Source of the DNA: an uncultured Acidimicrobiales bacterium
GTDB lineage: Bacteria; Actinomycetota; Acidimicrobiia; Acidimicrobiales; SHLQ01
NCBI GenBank assembly: GCA_937969345.1
Contig: CALBVK010000012.1
Span: forward strand, 1 to 38,950
Direction of reading: 5' to 3'
DNA: 38,950 bases
Both the position numbers and the translations under genes were made by a program. How positions within the stretch are numbered: position 1 is the stretch's first letter; every line of letters starts with the position of its first letter. The notes below the pieces were generated by a model. The model was not told the origin of the DNA, did no database searches, and saw nothing but the letters and a program-made list of their open reading frames with translations. Positions 20,068 to 38,127 of the stretch are shown one piece after another.

Positions 20068-20091
20068 CCCGTCGAACGAGTCGAAAACGAC

Positions 20092-20130
20092 AAACGCCGC
20101 CAGCAAGCTCGGAGCTCGCTGGCGGCGTTT
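20092..20130. terminator. Rho-independent-like hairpin downstream of mmsA
   Basis: 13-bp perfect stem AAACGCCGCCAGC / GCTGGCGGCGTTT. Confidence 0.85.
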
Positions 20131-20153
20131 CGCGTGTTATTGGTCGTGCAGAT

Positions 20154-29611: not shown

Positions 29612-31633
29612 ATGAGTGACAACCAGCCAGAAAATAGCGACGAGCTACGCGACGAAGTTGAGGAAGCGATCAAAGATCGCTCAGGCGCAGCCGATTCGTT
29701 GAAGGACAAGGCATCGGGCGCAGCAGCCGGGGCGGCAGGTGCAGCCTCGTCATTGCGTGACAAAGCCGCCGCAGCTAAGGCCAGCATGACCGATGCAGCC
29801 GACTCGATGAAAGACAAGGCGACCGGGGGTGACACTCCGTCGGTCACCGATTCGCTGAAAGAGCGAGCTGAGGCAGCCAAGGCTGGTCTCACCGGGAACG
29901 CAGGTGCTGCTTCTGATGCAGTAGAGGGCGCCGCTGGTGAAAGCGGTGGGCTTCTCGGAGGAATGAAAGGCCGCGCGGCAGCCGCTGCCGCAGGAGCAGC
30001 TGGCGCAGCTGCTTCGATGAAGGACAAGGCTGGTGACGCTGCATCTGGTGTTGCTGGTGGAGTGACCGGCGCGGCATCTGGCGTGGCCGGCGGTGTTTCC
30101 GGCGCAGCGTCGGGCGTCACCGGTGCTGCCGCGAGCGCAGTTGGTGGAGCGACCGAAAAGGCAGCCGCAGCAGGCGCAGCGGTCACCTCGACCGCCGCCA
30201 CGGCGGCAGCTGGTGTGCGAGACGTTGGCGCTGGCGCTGGCGCCGGTGCTGGAGGAAGTGTTGGCGGATCGAGCGGCGGCTCTGGCGGTTCAGGAGGATC
30301 GGGCGGCGGCTCCGGAAGCGGCGACGACGATGACGACGAGAAGCTGATTGGTGGCATCCCGATATCGGGCACGAACCAGATCATCGGGCTTGGTCTTCTC
30401 GTCGCCGCTCTGCTCTTCTTTGGTTCGACGATCACCGGATGGTTCTTCGGCGATGACGAATCGGTCGACATCGTCGATGCAATCGCAGACGTTGATGATC
30501 CGCGATGTGCGGCTGTCTTGGATGCGCTCGAAGATTCCGATCTCGACTCCGATAGCTACGCTCGGGTCTCCTGTGAGATCCGTAACGGTGAGGTGTTCCT
30601 CAGCGGGCCGGTGGCCTCCGACGAGCTCCGTTCGTCGATTGGCGCCGTAGCCGCAACTGCAACGCTCGGTGCGGCAACGCTCGACACCGACATCGGCGGA
30701 CTGTCGGTTCGCGATGCGGATGATGAGGTCGAAGAAGTTGCCGCTGAGGTCACCACGACCACCGCAGCGCCAACGACGACGACGGCCGCCCCCACGACGA
30801 CGGCGGCCCCGGAGACCACTACGACGACGGCAGCTCCAGAGACCACCACAACGACGACCGAAGCACCGGCGTACACGATGTGGAATGCGCTGAACGATTC
30901 CGGTCAGGCCACCCAGTTCGCTGCAGTCGGCAGTGCACTCGGTCTGCAAGCAGATCTTGATGCACTCGTCGACGAAGATGGTGCCGACGTGAATCGCACG
31001 TTGTTTGCGCTCACCGATGAAGCAATGGGAACGCTCGACCTCGCAACGCTGTCGGCGAACCCCGATGCTGCGAACGCCTTTGTTGGGTATCACTTCGTCA
31101 ACGAGCGGCTTACAAGCGCCGACCTGATCGCACTCGACGGCGAGACGCTTACGACCCGCACCGGCCTTCCTTTGGCGGTGTCGGTAGTCGACGGCAACGT
31201 CGTGCTGAACGGAACGACGACCGTGGTCGCAGCAGACTTCGAAGCCGACAATGGCATCGTCCACATCGTCAACCCACCGCTCACACCGCCGACGGTCAAC
31301 ACGGTCATCGGACTAGAGAACATCGAGTTCGAGGTCAACTCAGCGGTCATTACTGCTGCAGGTCAAGCAGAGCTGCAGAAGGCCGTTGCGTTCTTCACCG
31401 AGAATGCTTCCCTGAACTCCCTGATCGAGGGCCACACCGACACCGACGGTTCCGACGTCGACAACCTCGACTTGTCCGAGCGTCGTGCCGCTGCGGTCAA
31501 GCAGTTCCTCGTCGACAACGGCATCGACGGCGACCGCCTGACCACCCAGGGCTTCGGCGAAACGCAGCCGATCCTCGTCGATGGTGTTGAGGACAAAGCA
31601 GCGAGCCGCCGAATCGAGTTCGAGGTCCGCTAA
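29612..31633 (+). CDS. multidomain envelope protein: Ala-rich LEA/YtxH-like region, Gly-rich linker, TM, BON-like, TTAP linker, FAS1-like, OmpA domain
   Basis: C-term LIEGHTDTDGSDVDNLDLSERRAAAVKQFLVDNGIDGDRLTTQGFGETQPI is OmpA-like; TMWNALNDSGQATQFAAVGSALGL...FALTDEAMGTL...IVHIVNPPL is FAS1-like; TM IIGLGLLVAALLFFGSTITGWFFG. Confidence 0.85.
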   Translation: MSDNQPENSDELRDEVEEAIKDRSGAADSLKDKASGAAAGAAGAASSLRDKAAAAKASMTDAADSMKDKATGGDTPSVTDSLKERAEAAKAGLTGNAGAASDAVEGAAGESGGLLGGMKGRAAAAAAGAAGAAASMKDKAGDAASGVAGGVTGAASGVAGGVSGAASGVTGAAASAVGGATEKAAAAGAAVTSTAATAAAGVRDVGAGAGAGAGGSVGGSSGGSGGSGGSGGGSGSGDDDDDEKLIGGIPISGTNQIIGLGLLVAALLFFGSTITGWFFGDDESVDIVDAIADVDDPRCAAVLDALEDSDLDSDSYARVSCEIRNGEVFLSGPVASDELRSSIGAVAATATLGAATLDTDIGGLSVRDADDEVEEVAAEVTTTTAAPTTTTAAPTTTAAPETTTTTAAPETTTTTTEAPAYTMWNALNDSGQATQFAAVGSALGLQADLDALVDEDGADVNRTLFALTDEAMGTLDLATLSANPDAANAFVGYHFVNERLTSADLIALDGETLTTRTGLPLAVSVVDGNVVLNGTTTVVAADFEADNGIVHIVNPPLTPPTVNTVIGLENIEFEVNSAVITAAGQAELQKAVAFFTENASLNSLIEGHTDTDGSDVDNLDLSERRAAAVKQFLVDNGIDGDRLTTQGFGETQPILVDGVEDKAASRRIEFEVR

Positions 31634-31682: not shown

Positions 31683-31725
31683 ACGTGCGTGGCACCCGGC
31701 TGGGGTGCCACGCACGTCAGTTTTT
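31683..31725 (+). terminator. Rho-independent terminator downstream of OmpA-family gene
   Basis: 15-bp perfect stem ACGTGCGTGGCACCC-GGCTG-GGGTGCCACGCACGT followed by CAGTTTTT. Confidence 0.93.
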
Positions 31726-31767
31726 GTACAGGATTTGGTACCTGTGGGGTTTCTTTTTCTGTACAAA
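31723..31767 (-). repeat. 45-nt palindromic dispersed repeat, copy A (inverted relative to B and C)
   Basis: Plus strand TTTGTACAGGATTTGGTACCTGTGGGGTTTCTTTTTCTGTACAAA; its reverse complement matches copy C at 41 of 45 positions. Confidence 0.93.
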
Positions 31768-31823
31768 TCCGTTGATCGTGGTCCGGTCGGCGCTTGGTTG
31801 AGGGAATGGCCTAACCTGCCCAC

Positions 31824-33851
31824 ATGGTCATTCGCCGAGGTCGTCGCCGTCGTCAACAGCGCTTTACGTACTCGGCCTGGGATGGCACACAGGCCGACTA
31901 TGCAATGACCGCGGACGATCTGTTCCGGCAGATGACCGATGATCTTGCCTACCACGGCGACCCCAACGCAGCGCTGCGAAACCTGCTCCAGAACGGCTTC
32001 GAGCAAGACGGCGAACGTATGCAGGGGTTGCGTGAGATGCTCGAGCGCCTTAAGCAGCGGCGAGAAGAAATGCTCGAGTCAGGTGACGTCGGTGGCGTCT
32101 TTGCCGATCTTGCCGAGAAGCTCCGGGAGATCGTCGAGACCGAGCGCAATACCCTGCAGGCACAGGCGGAGTATTCCGCCGGAGGTGATGATCCCGATCA
32201 AGCTGACCGAGACGCTGCCGCTCAAGCCGAACGGAACCTCCAGCTCGATATGTTGCCGCCGGACCTGCCGGGCCAGGTCAAGTCGCTCCAGAACTACGAC
32301 TTCACCAGTAAGCAAGCCCAGCAGGACTTCGACGACCTTCTCGATGAAATGCGCAATCAACTGATGCAGCAAGCCGTCGACGGCATGAGCGAAGCCATGC
32401 AAAACATGTCTCCCGAGGACATGGCCGCCATGAAAGACATGATGGCTGATCTCAACGAGATGCTCGATCAACGAGCGAATGGCGAAGAACCCGATTTTGA
32501 TGCGTTCATGGACAAACATGGCGAGTTCTTCCCAGAGAACCCCGAAACGCTGGACGAGCTGCTCGAGAACATGGCTGCCCGCATGGCGGCGGCGCAGGCG
32601 ATGATGGCGTCGATGTCGCCCGAACAGCGAGCGCAGCTTCAAGAACTCTCCGATCAGCTGCTTGGTGACATGGATCTTCAGTTCCAGATGAACCAGCTCG
32701 GTCAGAATCTGCAACAGATGTTCCCGGACATGAATTGGGGGCAGAGCTACGACACCCAGGGTGCTGATCCGCTGAACTTTGGTCAGGCCATGGACCTGAT
32801 GAGCGACCTCGGCGACCTCGATCAGATCGAGCAGATGCTGCGAGGTACCACCAATCCTGGAGCGCTCGCCGAAATCGATTTCGAACGTGCCGCCGAGCTG
32901 TTGGGTAACGACACCGCAGAGTCGATGGAGCGGATGGCGCAGTTCACCCAGATGCTCGAGGACGCTGGCTTGATCAACAACAAGGAGGGCGCACTCGAGC
33001 TCACGCCGAGAGCTCTTCGCAAGGTGGGTCAGAACGTTCTCGATGATCTCTACACCAAGTTGTCCGCCGATCGACTCGGCCGTCACAACGTGGCCGAGAC
33101 CGGAATTGGACACGAGCGCAACTTCGAGACGAAGCCCTACGAGTTCGGCGATCCGTTTACCCTCAACATTGAGCGCACCGTCCGCAACGCAATTCGACGC
33201 ACCGGGGGCGGCACGCCCGTCAACCTGACGCCTGACGACTTCGAGGTCGAACGCACCGAACGGACGACTCGCACGTCCACCGTTCTCATGCTTGACCTCA
33301 GCTTGTCGATGCCGATGCGAGACAACTTTGTGCCAGCAAAAAAGGTGGCGCTCGCACTCGAGTCGCTGATCTCGGGTCAGTACCCGCAGGACTACCTAGG
33401 CATCGTGACCTTTAGTGAGGTCGCTCGAGAAGTGCCGGCGCGTGATCTCGCAGAGCTCTCGTGGGACTACGTGTACGGAACCAATATGCAACATGGCTTC
33501 CAGCTCGCCCGCCGGATGTTGTCAAAAGAGTCGGGTACCAAGCAGATTCTCATGGTCACCGATGGCGAACCGACCGCACACATCAACGACTTTGGGCGGC
33601 CTGAATTCAACTACCCGCCAACGCACGAGACGATCAACCTCACGCTCAAAGAGGTCAACAAGTGCACGAAGGACAACATCCGCATCAACGTCTTCATGCT
33701 CGATGCAACTCCGTATCTCACGGCGTTTATCGAACAGATCACCAAGATGAACGGCGGCCGAGCGTTCTTTACCGATAACCAGAACGTCGGCGACTTCGTG
33801 CTCGTCGACTTCGTCGAACAAAAGCGGAAGATGATCCGCCGGGCAGGCTGA
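31824..33851 (+). CDS. VWA domain-containing protein
   Basis: C-term TSTVLMLDLSLSMPMRDNFVPAKKVALALESLISGQYPQDYLGIVTFSEVAREV...ILMVTDGEPTAH (MIDAS DLSLSM); long Met/Gln-rich helical N-terminus. Confidence 0.92.
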   Translation: MVIRRGRRRRQQRFTYSAWDGTQADYAMTADDLFRQMTDDLAYHGDPNAALRNLLQNGFEQDGERMQGLREMLERLKQRREEMLESGDVGGVFADLAEKLREIVETERNTLQAQAEYSAGGDDPDQADRDAAAQAERNLQLDMLPPDLPGQVKSLQNYDFTSKQAQQDFDDLLDEMRNQLMQQAVDGMSEAMQNMSPEDMAAMKDMMADLNEMLDQRANGEEPDFDAFMDKHGEFFPENPETLDELLENMAARMAAAQAMMASMSPEQRAQLQELSDQLLGDMDLQFQMNQLGQNLQQMFPDMNWGQSYDTQGADPLNFGQAMDLMSDLGDLDQIEQMLRGTTNPGALAEIDFERAAELLGNDTAESMERMAQFTQMLEDAGLINNKEGALELTPRALRKVGQNVLDDLYTKLSADRLGRHNVAETGIGHERNFETKPYEFGDPFTLNIERTVRNAIRRTGGGTPVNLTPDDFEVERTERTTRTSTVLMLDLSLSMPMRDNFVPAKKVALALESLISGQYPQDYLGIVTFSEVAREVPARDLAELSWDYVYGTNMQHGFQLARRMLSKESGTKQILMVTDGEPTAHINDFGRPEFNYPPTHETINLTLKEVNKCTKDNIRINVFMLDATPYLTAFIEQITKMNGGRAFFTDNQNVGDFVLVDFVEQKRKMIRRAG

Positions 33852-33888
33852 CAATCTTGCGAATAGCGGCCCGTCCCGGGCGAGGCGG

Positions 33889-34275
33889 TTAGAGCGGAGC
33901 CAGGGTTGGTTCTTGGTAGGTCAGGCGCGCTGCGGGGGTGAAGAGCGTTTCTTTGTCCCAGTGCGCGAGCGGTGCCTTGCGGTCGCAGGTGGGGTGGTCG
34001 AAGAGGTCCTCTGGCGACTTGGCCTTGGCAGCGGCCACAGCGTTCACGTAGTACACCGTTAGCGTCTCGTGATACCCCGAATACTCGGTGTTGGCTGTGC
34101 CGACGCCGCAGTTATGTGCCTTGATCGAGTCGCGAAGGTGGGCGATTGCCTCGTCGATCGAGCGGGTCTGCAATGCCATCCAGCACGTGATCAGATGGGC
34201 TTCGTGGGTCCACTCGTCCTTGCCGAGGCATCCGTTGATGAAGTCGTCGTACATCTCTTGGTGCGATCGCTGCAT
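33889..34275 (-). CDS. conserved hypothetical protein
   Basis: MQRSHQEMYDDFINGCLGKDEWTHEAHLITCWMALQTRSIDEAIAHLRDSIKAHNCGVGTANTEYSGYHETLTVYYVNAV; intergenic on both sides; protein-like composition. Confidence 0.75.
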   Translation of the reverse strand: MQRSHQEMYDDFINGCLGKDEWTHEAHLITCWMALQTRSIDEAIAHLRDSIKAHNCGVGTANTEYSGYHETLTVYYVNAVAAAKAKSPEDLFDHPTCDRKAPLAHWDKETLFTPAARLTYQEPTLAPL

Positions 34276-34322
34276 GCTTCCAGCGTAATGGGGGCGGTGC
34301 TCGCATGTTCTAGGCTGCGCTG

Positions 34323-35267
34323 ATGGTCGACCGTGTTGCGTACGACGAATTTGCGTACTTTGCCGACAATGCCTCCGAGTTCGGGATCCCGTATTCGGAC
34401 CCTCCGGAGGTGCGCCGCGAAGCCGTCTCGATGGCTGACGGGAGAGCGATCAGTGCGCTGGTGTGGGGCACGAGCGCACCGGAGCTCGTGCTGATCCACG
34501 GCGGCGCCCAGAACGCCCATACCTGGGACACCGTCTGTCTCGCTCTGGGTCGGCCGCTGGTTGCAATCGACATGCCCGGCCACGGTCACTCCGACGCTCC
34601 AGCAGATGGTCCGGCGAACGTTCAACGAAACGCGCAGGACATCGCCGTAGTGATGCGTGCTCTAGCCCCGAATGCTCGGACTGTCGTCGGCATGAGTCTC
34701 GGCGGACTCACGACCATGGCGCTCTCGGCGCAGGAACCCGCGCTTTTTGACACGATGGTCCTCGTCGACATGACGCCGGGGGTGACCCGAGGTAAGGCGA
34801 AACAGATCGCTGACTTTGTGAACGGCCCGAAGAGCTTTGAGAACTTCGATGAGCTCCTTGCGCGAGCAATCGAGTTCAATCCGACCCGAACCGAGTCGTC
34901 GCTACGACGTGGAATCTTGCACAATGCCGAACAGCTCGAGGATGGCAGTTGGGTCTGGCGCCACGCGAGACACAATGTTTTCTCGACGCCGCCGGTCGAC
35001 GGTTCGAGCGCGCCAGAGTCGTCGTCCGATTCGCTCGACCAGGCCCGTCATGCTGCGTTGTGGGATGCCATCGAATCTCATGCTGGCCCGGTTGTTTTGG
35101 CCCGCGGAATGCGTGAGCAGTCGGTCGTCGATGACGACGACGAAGCCGAACTTCGCCGTCGTCGCCCCGATGCGCGTGTCGAACACTTCGTCGAAGCGGG
35201 CCACAGCATTCAGGGCGATATGCCGGTCGAGCTCGCCGCGTTGATCGACGACGTCCTTTCGGAGTAG
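34323..35267 (+). CDS. alpha/beta hydrolase
   Basis: ELVLIHGGAQNAHTWD, IDMPGHGHSDAP, VVGMSLGGLTTMAL (nucleophile GMSLGG), EAGHSIQGDMP. Confidence 0.92.
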   Translation: MVDRVAYDEFAYFADNASEFGIPYSDPPEVRREAVSMADGRAISALVWGTSAPELVLIHGGAQNAHTWDTVCLALGRPLVAIDMPGHGHSDAPADGPANVQRNAQDIAVVMRALAPNARTVVGMSLGGLTTMALSAQEPALFDTMVLVDMTPGVTRGKAKQIADFVNGPKSFENFDELLARAIEFNPTRTESSLRRGILHNAEQLEDGSWVWRHARHNVFSTPPVDGSSAPESSSDSLDQARHAALWDAIESHAGPVVLARGMREQSVVDDDDEAELRRRRPDARVEHFVEAGHSIQGDMPVELAALIDDVLSE

Positions 35268-35269
35268 TT

Positions 35270-35827
35270 GTGAGCGACACTGTTTCGGAGATCGAGCGGC
35301 TCTTTGGCGAGTATGGGCGGAGCAACTACGACGAGGGCGTAACGCTCGAACAGCATTGTTTGCAGACCGCAGCGTTGGCGGTATCCGATGGTGCGAGTAC
35401 CGAGCTGATTATCGCGGCGCTACTCCACGACGTGGGGCACTTTCTCCAAGCCCAGGCTCGCGGCAACGAGAACTATCTGGCGATCGACTGGGCCCACGAC
35501 ACCGTCGCTGCGGATTGGCTCCGACCGAGGTTTGGAGACGAGGTCGCCGATCCGGTCGGGCATCATGTTTCGGCAAAGCGCTGGCTGTGTGCTCGGGAAT
35601 CTGCGTACTTCGATGCTCTGTCGGCTGCCTCGGTCGCCAGCCTGGCTGCCCAAGGTGGACCCTTCACCGACGCCGAAGCGGCAGCGTGGAAAGCACAACC
35701 CGGTACAGACGACGCGGTTCGTCTCCGCCGCTGGGACGACGACGGCAAGGTCGATGGGGTCACGGTCGATCCACTGTCGGCCTACCTCGATCTTCTCGTG
35801 CGTTCATCGATCGACCGCACACCGTGA
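35270..35827 (+). CDS. HD-domain protein, PhnZ-like (mixed-valent diiron oxygenase-like)
   Basis: GTG start; NYDEGVTLEQHCLQTAALA, LIIAALLHDVGHFLQ, WAHDTVAADWLRPRFGDEVADPVGHHVSAKRWLC, ALSAASVASLAAQGGPFT, DAVRLRRWDDDGKV. Confidence 0.78.
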   Translation: MSDTVSEIERLFGEYGRSNYDEGVTLEQHCLQTAALAVSDGASTELIIAALLHDVGHFLQAQARGNENYLAIDWAHDTVAADWLRPRFGDEVADPVGHHVSAKRWLCARESAYFDALSAASVASLAAQGGPFTDAEAAAWKAQPGTDDAVRLRRWDDDGKVDGVTVDPLSAYLDLLVRSSIDRTP

Positions 35828-36888
35828 ACAGCCCACGGGTGGTGTTTCTGATCGAGGACTCCTTGCCGAACGGCAGGGTTGGTCCTGAGCTGACGCCGAT
35901 GCTGTGGTCACTGATTGGCGAAGGCGGCTGGAACCCGAACGGGGGAGTGTCGGTGTTGGCGAGTTCCACGTATCCGAACCACGCCACGTTCGCGACCGGG
36001 CGGGATGTCGCGAGCCATCGCATCTTCACCAACGATGTTTGGGATGGCGAACGGTTTGTGTGTTCGTCGACGGTGGGCCCGGTTGGTGACACGGTCTTTT
36101 TGGCCGCCAAGCGAGCTGGGCGGTCGAGCGCCGCGATCGTCGGTGACCAAACCATGGTCGGATGTATGGGGGCGACCGACGCCGATGTTCACTGGCCACC
36201 GGCAGGCGTGCTGCCAGCGACGGTCGAGCGAGATTGTCTCGGCTATGCGGCCAACAGTGCGGTCATCGAACAACTGGCGTCGAGTAGTGCCCTCGATGCT
36301 GATGTCCTCTACATCCACATGAACGATCCGGACTCGACGCTGCACCTTTTTGGTCCGGATGCTCCTGAGACTGTCGACCGGATCCGTGAGATTGACGATG
36401 ACCTGGCAGCTATTGTGGAGATGCTGCGGCCTCGATGGGACGACACGGTCTTGTTCATCGTGAGCGATCATGAGCAAGAAGCCGTGAACCAAGACCTCGA
36501 GCCGATCAACTTGTTAGAAGAGCTCGATCACGCCGGGTTGCCGGGGCACGCTCACAACGAGGGCACGATCGGCATCGTGTACGACTCGCCGGGAGCAGCG
36601 GTGATCAAACAGCTCGGTCTGATCGAGGATGCTGTCGATCTCGATCTGAACGAAGACGGATCGGCCATCACCCTTGCCTGGTCGGGTCAGGGTCGAGTGT
36701 TCGGTCGGTCGAATAAGACTCTGGCTGGCCAGCACGGATCGCCACGCACACGCACGCAGGTCGCGACCGTGTCCGGCGGTCACGCTGCGGTGGGAGACCT
36801 GGCGACGTTGCTCGCTGCGAGGCGACCCCACGCAACGGACTACGCCCAACTGATCGCCACCCTCCTCGGCCTCCCCCTCAACCGCTAG
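35824..36888 (+). CDS. alkaline phosphatase superfamily (type I phosphodiesterase/nucleotide pyrophosphatase-like) protein
   Basis: GTG start overlapping upstream TGA (GTGA); ASSTYPNHATFATGRD (Thr nucleophile context), HMNDPDSTLHLFGPD, FIVSDHEQE, GHAHNEGTIGIVY. Confidence 0.87.
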   Translation: MNSPRVVFLIEDSLPNGRVGPELTPMLWSLIGEGGWNPNGGVSVLASSTYPNHATFATGRDVASHRIFTNDVWDGERFVCSSTVGPVGDTVFLAAKRAGRSSAAIVGDQTMVGCMGATDADVHWPPAGVLPATVERDCLGYAANSAVIEQLASSSALDADVLYIHMNDPDSTLHLFGPDAPETVDRIREIDDDLAAIVEMLRPRWDDTVLFIVSDHEQEAVNQDLEPINLLEELDHAGLPGHAHNEGTIGIVYDSPGAAVIKQLGLIEDAVDLDLNEDGSAITLAWSGQGRVFGRSNKTLAGQHGSPRTRTQVATVSGGHAAVGDLATLLAARRPHATDYAQLIATLLGLPLNR

Positions 36889-36891
36889 AGA

Positions 36892-36936
36892 TTTGTACAG
36901 AAAAAGGAACCTCACAGGGTCCAGATCCTGTACAAA
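36892..36936 (+). repeat. 45-nt palindromic dispersed repeat, copy B
   Basis: TTTGTACAGAAAAAGGAACCTCACAGGGTCCAGATCCTGTACAAA; differs from copy C at one position. Confidence 0.95.
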
Positions 36937-36951
36937 TCCCGTCTCTGGGTT

Positions 36952-36996
36952 TTTGTACAGAAAAAGGAACCTCACAGGGTCCAAATCCTGTACAAA
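36952..36996 (+). repeat. 45-nt palindromic dispersed repeat, copy C
   Basis: TTTGTACAGAAAAAGGAACCTCACAGGGTCCAAATCCTGTACAAA; exactly 60 nt after copy B. Confidence 0.95.
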
Positions 36997-36999
36997 TCT

Positions 37000-38127
37000 C
37001 TAGTTGCGGATCGGTGGGTGGCTGGTGATGAACTCGACGACGTCTTCTGGGCTGTCGAGGACCGCGATCATGTCGGCGTAGGGACGTTCGCCGGCGAGCT
37101 GGCGAAGCAAGAGTGGCGCAGCCAATCGGTCGTCGGCCCAGTAGGCACTGTCCACGAAGACCATCGGCGAGATGATTCCGAACACGTTGTAGTGGTTCTG
37201 GGTGGCATCCATGAACACCTCTTGGACGGTTCCGGCGGCACCGGGGGTGTACACGACCCCGTGTGTTGCGATCGCCAGGAGTCCGTCCTCGCGGATGCTG
37301 TTGCTGAAATACTTGGCGACGTCGGTGGCGAAGTCGTTCGTTGGCTCGTGACCATAGAACCAGGTGGGGATTGCGAGACTCGGCGACCCGCCAGGGGTGT
37401 TGGCCACAACGTCGAGGCCGACCTCCCGATATTCCTGCGTCTTGTAGTCCACCTCGGTGCGAAGTTTGTCGATCGCATCATCGAGGGCGTCGTCGGGCTG
37501 TGGTGCGAGCCAGGCACCTAGGTTTCCCGCTTCCATGGCACCTGGTCCGCCGCCGGTCACGACCAGATGTCCTGTGCGGGTTAGTGCCCGAGCTACGACA
37601 GCGACCGTTCGGTAGGTCTGTTCGTTACGACGCAGGCTGTGCCCACCCATGATCGCCACCACCTTTTCGTGATGCGAGAGGTAGCTCTGCAAGGCATCGT
37701 CGATTGCGTGATCGTGGATGCGTTGCGCGAGCGCTTCGAGAATCGGCGGGGGAGGGCTTTCCCGCCACCTTGCCTGATGGTGGTAGATACGGCTGTCGAG
37801 CTCATTGGTTCGCAGCTCGTCGGGGGTGTAGAGCGTGCCGCGATACGCGTTGTACGGAAGGTTCTCAAAGGGGGGAAAGACGGTGGCTCCCGTTGCTGCC
37901 ACGTGGCGTTCGGCATCGTCGGTGAGTAGGCAGCCCAAGAACGCGGTGTGTGGCCAAACCCGGTCGAGGATTTCGTCGGTACGTTCGCACAGATCGAGGC
38001 CTTGGACGGCAAGAGCACGCTTGCTGCCCGGTCCAACGAGCACGGAATCGAACGCTTCGATGGAGGTGATCTCGGCACATTCAGGAATGAGGGTGTGCGT
38101 TGAGGGGACGTTCTTTGGCGATGTCAC
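37000..38127 (-). CDS. LOG family / PpnN-like Rossmann-fold nucleotide hydrolase
   Basis: VAIMGGHSLRRNEQTYRTVAVVARALTRTGHLVVTGGGPGAMEAGNLGAW; PGAAGTVQEVFMDATQNHY. Confidence 0.82.
   Translation of the reverse strand: MTSPKNVPSTHTLIPECAEITSIEAFDSVLVGPGSKRALAVQGLDLCERTDEILDRVWPHTAFLGCLLTDDAERHVAATGATVFPPFENLPYNAYRGTLYTPDELRTNELDSRIYHHQARWRESPPPPILEALAQRIHDHAIDDALQSYLSHHEKVVAIMGGHSLRRNEQTYRTVAVVARALTRTGHLVVTGGGPGAMEAGNLGAWLAPQPDDALDDAIDKLRTEVDYKTQEYREVGLDVVANTPGGSPSLAIPTWFYGHEPTNDFATDVAKYFSNSIREDGLLAIATHGVVYTPGAAGTVQEVFMDATQNHYNVFGIISPMVFVDSAYWADDRLAAPLLLRQLAGERPYADMIAVLDSPEDVVEFITSHPPIRN

Follow-up and report, generated by a model that had tools for sequence, protein, structure and literature searches.

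The window analysed here, a stretch of 38,950 nucleotides (nt) from an uncultured Acidimicrobiales bacterium (contig CALBVK010000012.1), carries three copies of a 45-nt palindrome. The locus raises the question of what these repeats are and which enzyme, if any, they belong to. To our knowledge, the only dedicated enzymes established for repeats resembling the repetitive extragenic palindromes (REPs) of bacteria are the REP-associated tyrosine transposases (RAYTs). We found that the palindromes of the window belong to a larger family located mostly at gene ends, and that in each species carrying this family the same palindromes enclose a gene for a protein with an AbiEi-like N-terminal part and a DUF559 nuclease part. 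This association points to a second family of enzymes, not linked to REP-like repeats before, that may stand behind such repeats in bacteria.

A family of 45-nt palindromes

The three copies, labelled A, B and C, are located in the window as follows.

31723..31767: element A, 45-nt palindrome TTTGTACAG-N27-CTGTACAAA, with GTT before it and TCC after it; 89 nt past the stop codon of an OmpA-family gene
36892..36936: element B, member 1 of a doublet, with TAG-AGA before it, where TAG is the upstream gene's stop codon
36937..36951: spacer within the B/C doublet, 15 nt, giving a 60-nt period
36952..36996: element C, member 2 of the doublet, with TCT-CTA after it, where CTA is the convergent gene's stop codon

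The length, the perfect 9-bp arms and the positions that an initial annotation of the window had given for these copies were all reproduced, and the 45-nt/9-bp-arm pattern gave 0 matches in the dinucleotide-shuffled window. No match to a known RNA family of Rfam was obtained in the window, and we found neither a catalogued match nor a description in the open-access literature, in agreement with the initial annotation, which recognised no named family.

When the metagenome-assembled genome (MAG) that contains the window, G000, was scanned with the pattern, 21 exact copies were found (20 of 45 nt and one of 46 nt), while the reversed control pattern gave 0 matches. A covariance model was built on 34 copies and searched across eleven genus members. 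Elements of this type (TTTGT elements) were present in six of the eleven, with 21 copies in G000, about 24 in G015, about 62 in G013, about 26 in G016, 12 in G017 and 21 in G018; the six MAGs hold 167 elements, nearly everywhere 45 or 46 nt long. The family is thus neither confined to the three copies of the window nor without counterparts in relatives. The copy counts are minima, since every genome of the genus is a MAG and elements stand at the ends of several contigs. Beyond the genus, a search for TTTGTACAG arms gave nothing convincing in 397 genomes of the order, where only scattered two-mismatch matches appeared, and matches in unrelated phyla were scattered singles with unrelated interiors. 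A Bacteroidales MAG, JAEEMK (L044, L051, L073), contained nested multi-copy palindromes built from TGTACAGTATATGTACAGTA, in a layout unrelated to that of the TTTGT elements.

Common to the species is a half-site, TTTGT-N4-NNTTT-NNNACC, inverted about a 5-nt centre, the T run being AAA in some halves. The 9-nt arm, identical in all three copies of the window, is not fixed across species: only TTTGT...ACC / GGT...ACAAA is constant, and the arm varies, TTTGTACAG being typical of G000 and G015, TTTGTGAAG of G018 and part of G013, TTTGTCCCC of G017 and TTTGTACAC of G016. The arm-to-arm length given initially was right for the palindrome, but the conserved stretch runs 2-3 nt past each 45-nt end, as (A/G)GA or GTT plus the mirror image. 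In G000 and G015, left and right half-sites paired with each other no better than independently drawn half-sites, and some elements of G013 had two non-complementary arms. Hence, the recognised unit looks like the half-site rather than the hairpin, and an RNA helix as the conserved unit was rejected on the same grounds. No isolated half-sites were found in G000 or G015. Doublets made up 25 of 140 units, with a 60-nt period and a spacer of 15 nt (rarely 14) of free sequence. The 60-nt period was found in doublets of G000, G015, G013, G016 and G010.

A gene for a predicted DNA-binding nuclease, enclosed by the palindromes

In all six species with TTTGT elements, two elements about 1 kb apart enclose one gene for a protein of about 303 amino acids. 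Pfam placed AbiEi_4 at its N terminus and the MTES_1575/DUF559 nuclease at its C terminus; AbiEi_4 was found in 30 of 31 family members and PADLOC AbiEi models in 31 of 31. A profile of the 31 members matched the homing endonuclease I-Bth0305I (3r3p) with an E value of 6.6e-7; its match to the AbiEi antitoxin 6y8q was weak (E 0.025). Residues D233, E244, H251 and D260 were invariant in the 31 sequences. By these comparisons, the nuclease domain is EDxHD/Vsr-like and related to I-Bth0305I. In G000, the element even encodes the final codons of the gene (FVQKK-stop).

Close orthologs (at least 65% identity) were present in 6/6 genomes with TTTGT elements and in 0/5 congeners without them. In G015, G013 and G016, the nuclease gene has the same two neighbours, X on one side and Y on the other; in G000 it follows X, with the contig ending before Y. 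In G017 and G018, a single element stands between X and Y, and the nuclease gene is at another place. In G011:C15 (L281, around 2440-2580), a longer repeat (GCTGAGCTTCCCGGGGCTTCGCCCC...) was seen between X and Y in two tandem copies. An AbiEii toxin gene was neither annotated beside the Tsukamurella DUF559 genes described below nor noted beside the genes of G000 and G015, no systematic search for one having been made. Relatives of the nuclease were not found in viral contigs, and phage records gave two weak matches only, to the nuclease part.

Paralogs at 25-34% identity likewise stood between two palindromes of 43-47 nt that resembled each other, and the sequence differed per lineage. When a fixed criterion was applied in a purpose-written palindrome scan (a similar palindrome pair within 250 nt on both sides of the gene), 29 of 45 such paralogs were bracketed, against 1 of 73 other genes of the same loci; two ordinary AbiEi/AbiEii toxin-antitoxin loci had no matching pair. 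A second gene of G015 (C226), 65% identical, has a different palindrome on both sides. In Tsukamurella tyrosinosolvens NZ_LR134454, each of two DUF559 genes is bracketed by a different palindrome pair, and one solo copy of one of these palindromes stands behind a different gene. One bracketed AbiEi-DUF559 gene was also found in Arthrobacter StoSoilB13. In another genus, a 51%-identical nuclease gene (G007:C91, L349) lies between 71-nt direct repeats (1489-1559 and 2486-2556) with looser palindromic arms.

As a test of prediction, a search pattern, TCTGTGSA-N29-TSCACAGA, was derived from the arms that flank the paralogs of G009-G012. Dispersed copies were found in G009 (30), G010 (25), G011 (22), G012 (29) and G014 (9). 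Among the TTTGT species, those with such a paralog had 11 (G000; L335), 8 (G015; L333) and 19 copies (G016; L342), and those where no such paralog was seen had one (G013) or none (G017 and G018). The reversed control gave 0 matches.

We consider it reasonably probable that the elements are dispersed binding sites of the AbiEi-DUF559 protein, and probably its cut-or-copy substrate. The site bound by AbiEi of Streptococcus agalactiae is 49 bp long and consists of a pair of 23-bp inverted repeats with 3 bp between them (PMC7319586), and the target on which I-Bth0305I forms a dimer measures nearly 60 bp (PMC3943268), which makes a dimer on a 49-bp palindrome the natural reading. We infer binding, cleavage and copying by the AbiEi-DUF559 protein, in the following way. 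The AbiEi-type winged-helix domain would sit as a dimer on the two inverted half-sites of the 49-nt element (45 nt plus the GA/TC ends), the C-terminal EDxHD/Vsr-like nuclease would nick or cut at the palindrome, and repair of the break would copy the palindrome to further places. The nuclease gene sits between two elements and can take a place held by a single element in relatives. Most surviving insertions would be those directly behind a stop codon, the least harmful position, with a possible secondary use as mRNA-end hairpins. Each nuclease lineage goes with a palindrome of its own. We are evenly balanced on the wider proposal that AbiEi-DUF559 proteins are mobile-DNA enzymes that multiply their own operator-like palindrome of about 49 bp, in parallel to RAYT/REP with a nuclease of the homing-endonuclease type, Actinomycetota-wide and with several pairs per genome competing for gene-end sites.

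Gene ends, orthologous sites and alternative explanations

The genes next to the elements of the window are the following.

29612..31633, + strand: OmpA/fasciclin/BON-domain gene, upstream of element A
35356..36888, + strand: type I phosphodiesterase/nucleotide pyrophosphatase family gene, stop 3 nt ahead of element B; start codon uncertain
37000..38127, - strand: convergent gene with a weak SLOG-cluster match, stop 3 nt after element C

The arrangement TAG-AGA-[B]-15-[C]-TCT-CTA thus links two convergent genes. Orthologs of the 37000..38127 gene were found in all 11 genus members, and in G009 and G011 what appears to be the same convergent pair has no element between, as judged by eye. A strong terminator-like hairpin with a T run lies at 31683-31717, directly upstream of element A, so that the gene end before A has its own terminator besides the element. 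A near-perfect 45-nt inverted repeat (CAAACGCCGCCAGCAAGC...) at 20089-20133 of the window is unrelated to the TTTGT family.

With gene calls from a simple, purpose-written caller, a position relative to genes was obtained for 159 elements, of which 71 were between convergent, 80 between tandem and 8 between divergent genes. For comparison, adjacent called gene pairs of the window were convergent in about 7 cases, tandem in 18 and divergent in 7. A stop codon lay within 15 nt of 126 of the 159 elements (the doublet partner being counted) and a start codon within 15 nt of 7. The most frequent distance between element and stop, seen 45 times, was exactly 3 nt; the stop codon of a gene was inside the element in 19 cases.

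All 21 elements of G000 had a same-place counterpart in G015, and several of these sites were also occupied in G013, G016, G017 and G018, each with the species-typical sequence. These observations favour the strongest alternative, to which we give a minor but real share of probability: the elements would be regulon or architectural sites of a resident DNA-binding factor (e.g., insulators or ends of convergent transcription), vertically kept and with no real mobility, and their homogeneity would come from coevolution and gene conversion. The strong placement at gene 3′ ends and the hairpins that the elements can form also suit such sites. The location at gene ends rather than at promoters speaks against this alternative, and so does the difference at one site that is a doublet in G000 and single in G015, where the sequences differ by exactly 49 nt (AACCCTCTA-GAGA-[45]-AACGG against AACCCTCTA joined directly to AACGG), a clean presence/absence. 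Moreover, the nuclease gene itself is bracketed and changes place, and one and the same gene end can hold unrelated palindrome families depending on the species, G010 and G014 having at one gene end another family, TCTGTGCAG...CTGCACAGA, of 45 nt and adjoining the stop codon.

At three orthologous sites of G000 and G015 (L001/L088, L013/L023 and L002/L066), the interior of the element has opposite orientations in the two genomes with respect to the genes around it. The first of these is the site of element A (31723-31767), whose ortholog in G015, L088, has the inverted interior; with interiors turning at several sites, A is not the odd copy that it had first seemed to be. In the B/C doublet (36892-36996), the entire block including the spacer appears inverted between G000 and G015.

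Several points weigh against the AbiEi-DUF559 protein as the agent of dispersal. The elements have long kept their positions across species, as functional sites would also do. There was no direct-repeat excess at the element flanks, hence no target-site duplication that would account for the copying step. About a third of the paralogs failed the palindrome criterion, some of the misses (L288, L289, L303) having known, less symmetric elements. G014, whose MAG is 67% complete, has 9 copies of the second family, but no nuclease gene was found in it. The correlation of palindrome similarity with protein similarity speaks for the protein (Mantel r of 0.66 overall, somewhat higher with the AbiEi part, 0.70, than with the nuclease part, 0.55), but is confounded by shared descent.

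A quite improbable alternative is that the gene-side palindromes are merely the operator and the terminator of a self-regulated AbiEi-like gene, the dispersed copies being secondary or independent terminators. AbiEi proteins do autoregulate through long inverted repeats, of equal total length (PMC7319586), and oligo-T lies beside the inner hairpin in some elements of G000. An operator and a terminator would not account for a matching palindrome also behind the gene, for dispersed copies that share the arms and co-occur with the gene, or for the two ordinary AbiEi/AbiEii loci without a pair. Oligo-T was found in some copies of G000, G015 and G013 only, and was absent from G017 and from nearly all copies of G018; a conserved intrinsic terminator (GC hairpin plus oligo-T) was rejected because the oligo-T is not kept across species. 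A secondary role of the elements as bidirectional mRNA ends is possible.

Mobilisation as REPs or bacterial interspersed mosaic elements by a RAYT (Y1) transposase is very improbable: the elements are extragenic imperfect palindromes with doublets and all 11 genus members have RAYT genes, but so do the congeners free of TTTGT elements, none of the 16 Y1 loci scanned had a TTTGT element at its flanks, the palindromes there (L125-L132, L245-L251), where present, being of the GGTGCCTGGCACC, GGTACCTGGTACC or GGGGTCAGACCCC types, and the element foot has no GTAG or CGTC tetranucleotide, its ends being (A/G)GA-TTTGT or GTT-TTTGT and the mirror image. The REP-like character seen initially therefore holds for a dispersed extragenic palindromic family and not for RAYT/REP membership. 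The initial annotation had also suggested a search for a Y1 or other transposase with matching ends; the enzyme found with matching ends is a different one, the AbiEi-DUF559 nuclease.

Relation to known systems

Like miniature inverted-repeat transposable elements (MITEs), the TTTGT elements are small, dispersed inverted repeats in intergenic gaps. An ordinary MITE, as first considered, is unlikely, with no parent insertion sequence having these ends, no single half-sites in G000 or G015 and no target-site duplication. The paired geometry resembles the R and L boxes of attC sites, but its GTT/AAC polarity does not fit, and copies occur between convergent genes; attC-like sites were therefore rejected.

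With the AbiEi antitoxin of type IV toxin-antitoxin systems, the enclosed protein shares a homologous N-terminal domain, and the 23+3+23 operator has the length of the 49-nt element. It differs from this antitoxin in its nuclease fusion and in a site that is repeated genome-wide at gene ends. The EDxHD homing endonuclease I-Bth0305I has a homologous nuclease domain and is a dimer on a long target. Unlike genes of that type, the gene described here is neither intronic nor inserted in a host gene; it is bracketed by palindromes and its protein has an AbiEi-like recognition domain.

No report linking AbiEi-DUF559 proteins to palindromes was found in the open-access literature, and an earlier report elsewhere is possible. 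REPs tagged with CGTC have been reported without a RAYT (PMC3733652). A second, unrelated enzyme family with cognate palindromes would, if true, explain orphan repeat families. It would also give a function to a domain still named DUF559, and would show a way for an operator of the antitoxin type, together with a homing nuclease, to turn into a dispersed parasite of the genome or a tool of the host. The proposal is readily testable, with a single small protein, a short DNA site and many natural protein-site pairs.

The closest parallel is found in the REP/REPIN-RAYT systems, or REPtrons (PMC2817692, PMC3733652). Like them, the system described here has short extragenic imperfect palindromes that also occur as doublets, copies of the same palindrome on both sides of an enzyme gene, and one palindrome family per enzyme lineage. 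Unlike them, it has an AbiEi-DUF559 nuclease in place of a Y1/HUH transposase, lacks the GTAG/CGTC tag and keeps a fixed 45-nt geometry of 20+5+20. Hence, the AbiEi-DUF559 protein and its palindromes are best read as a system of REPtron-like organisation that is not homologous to REPtrons.

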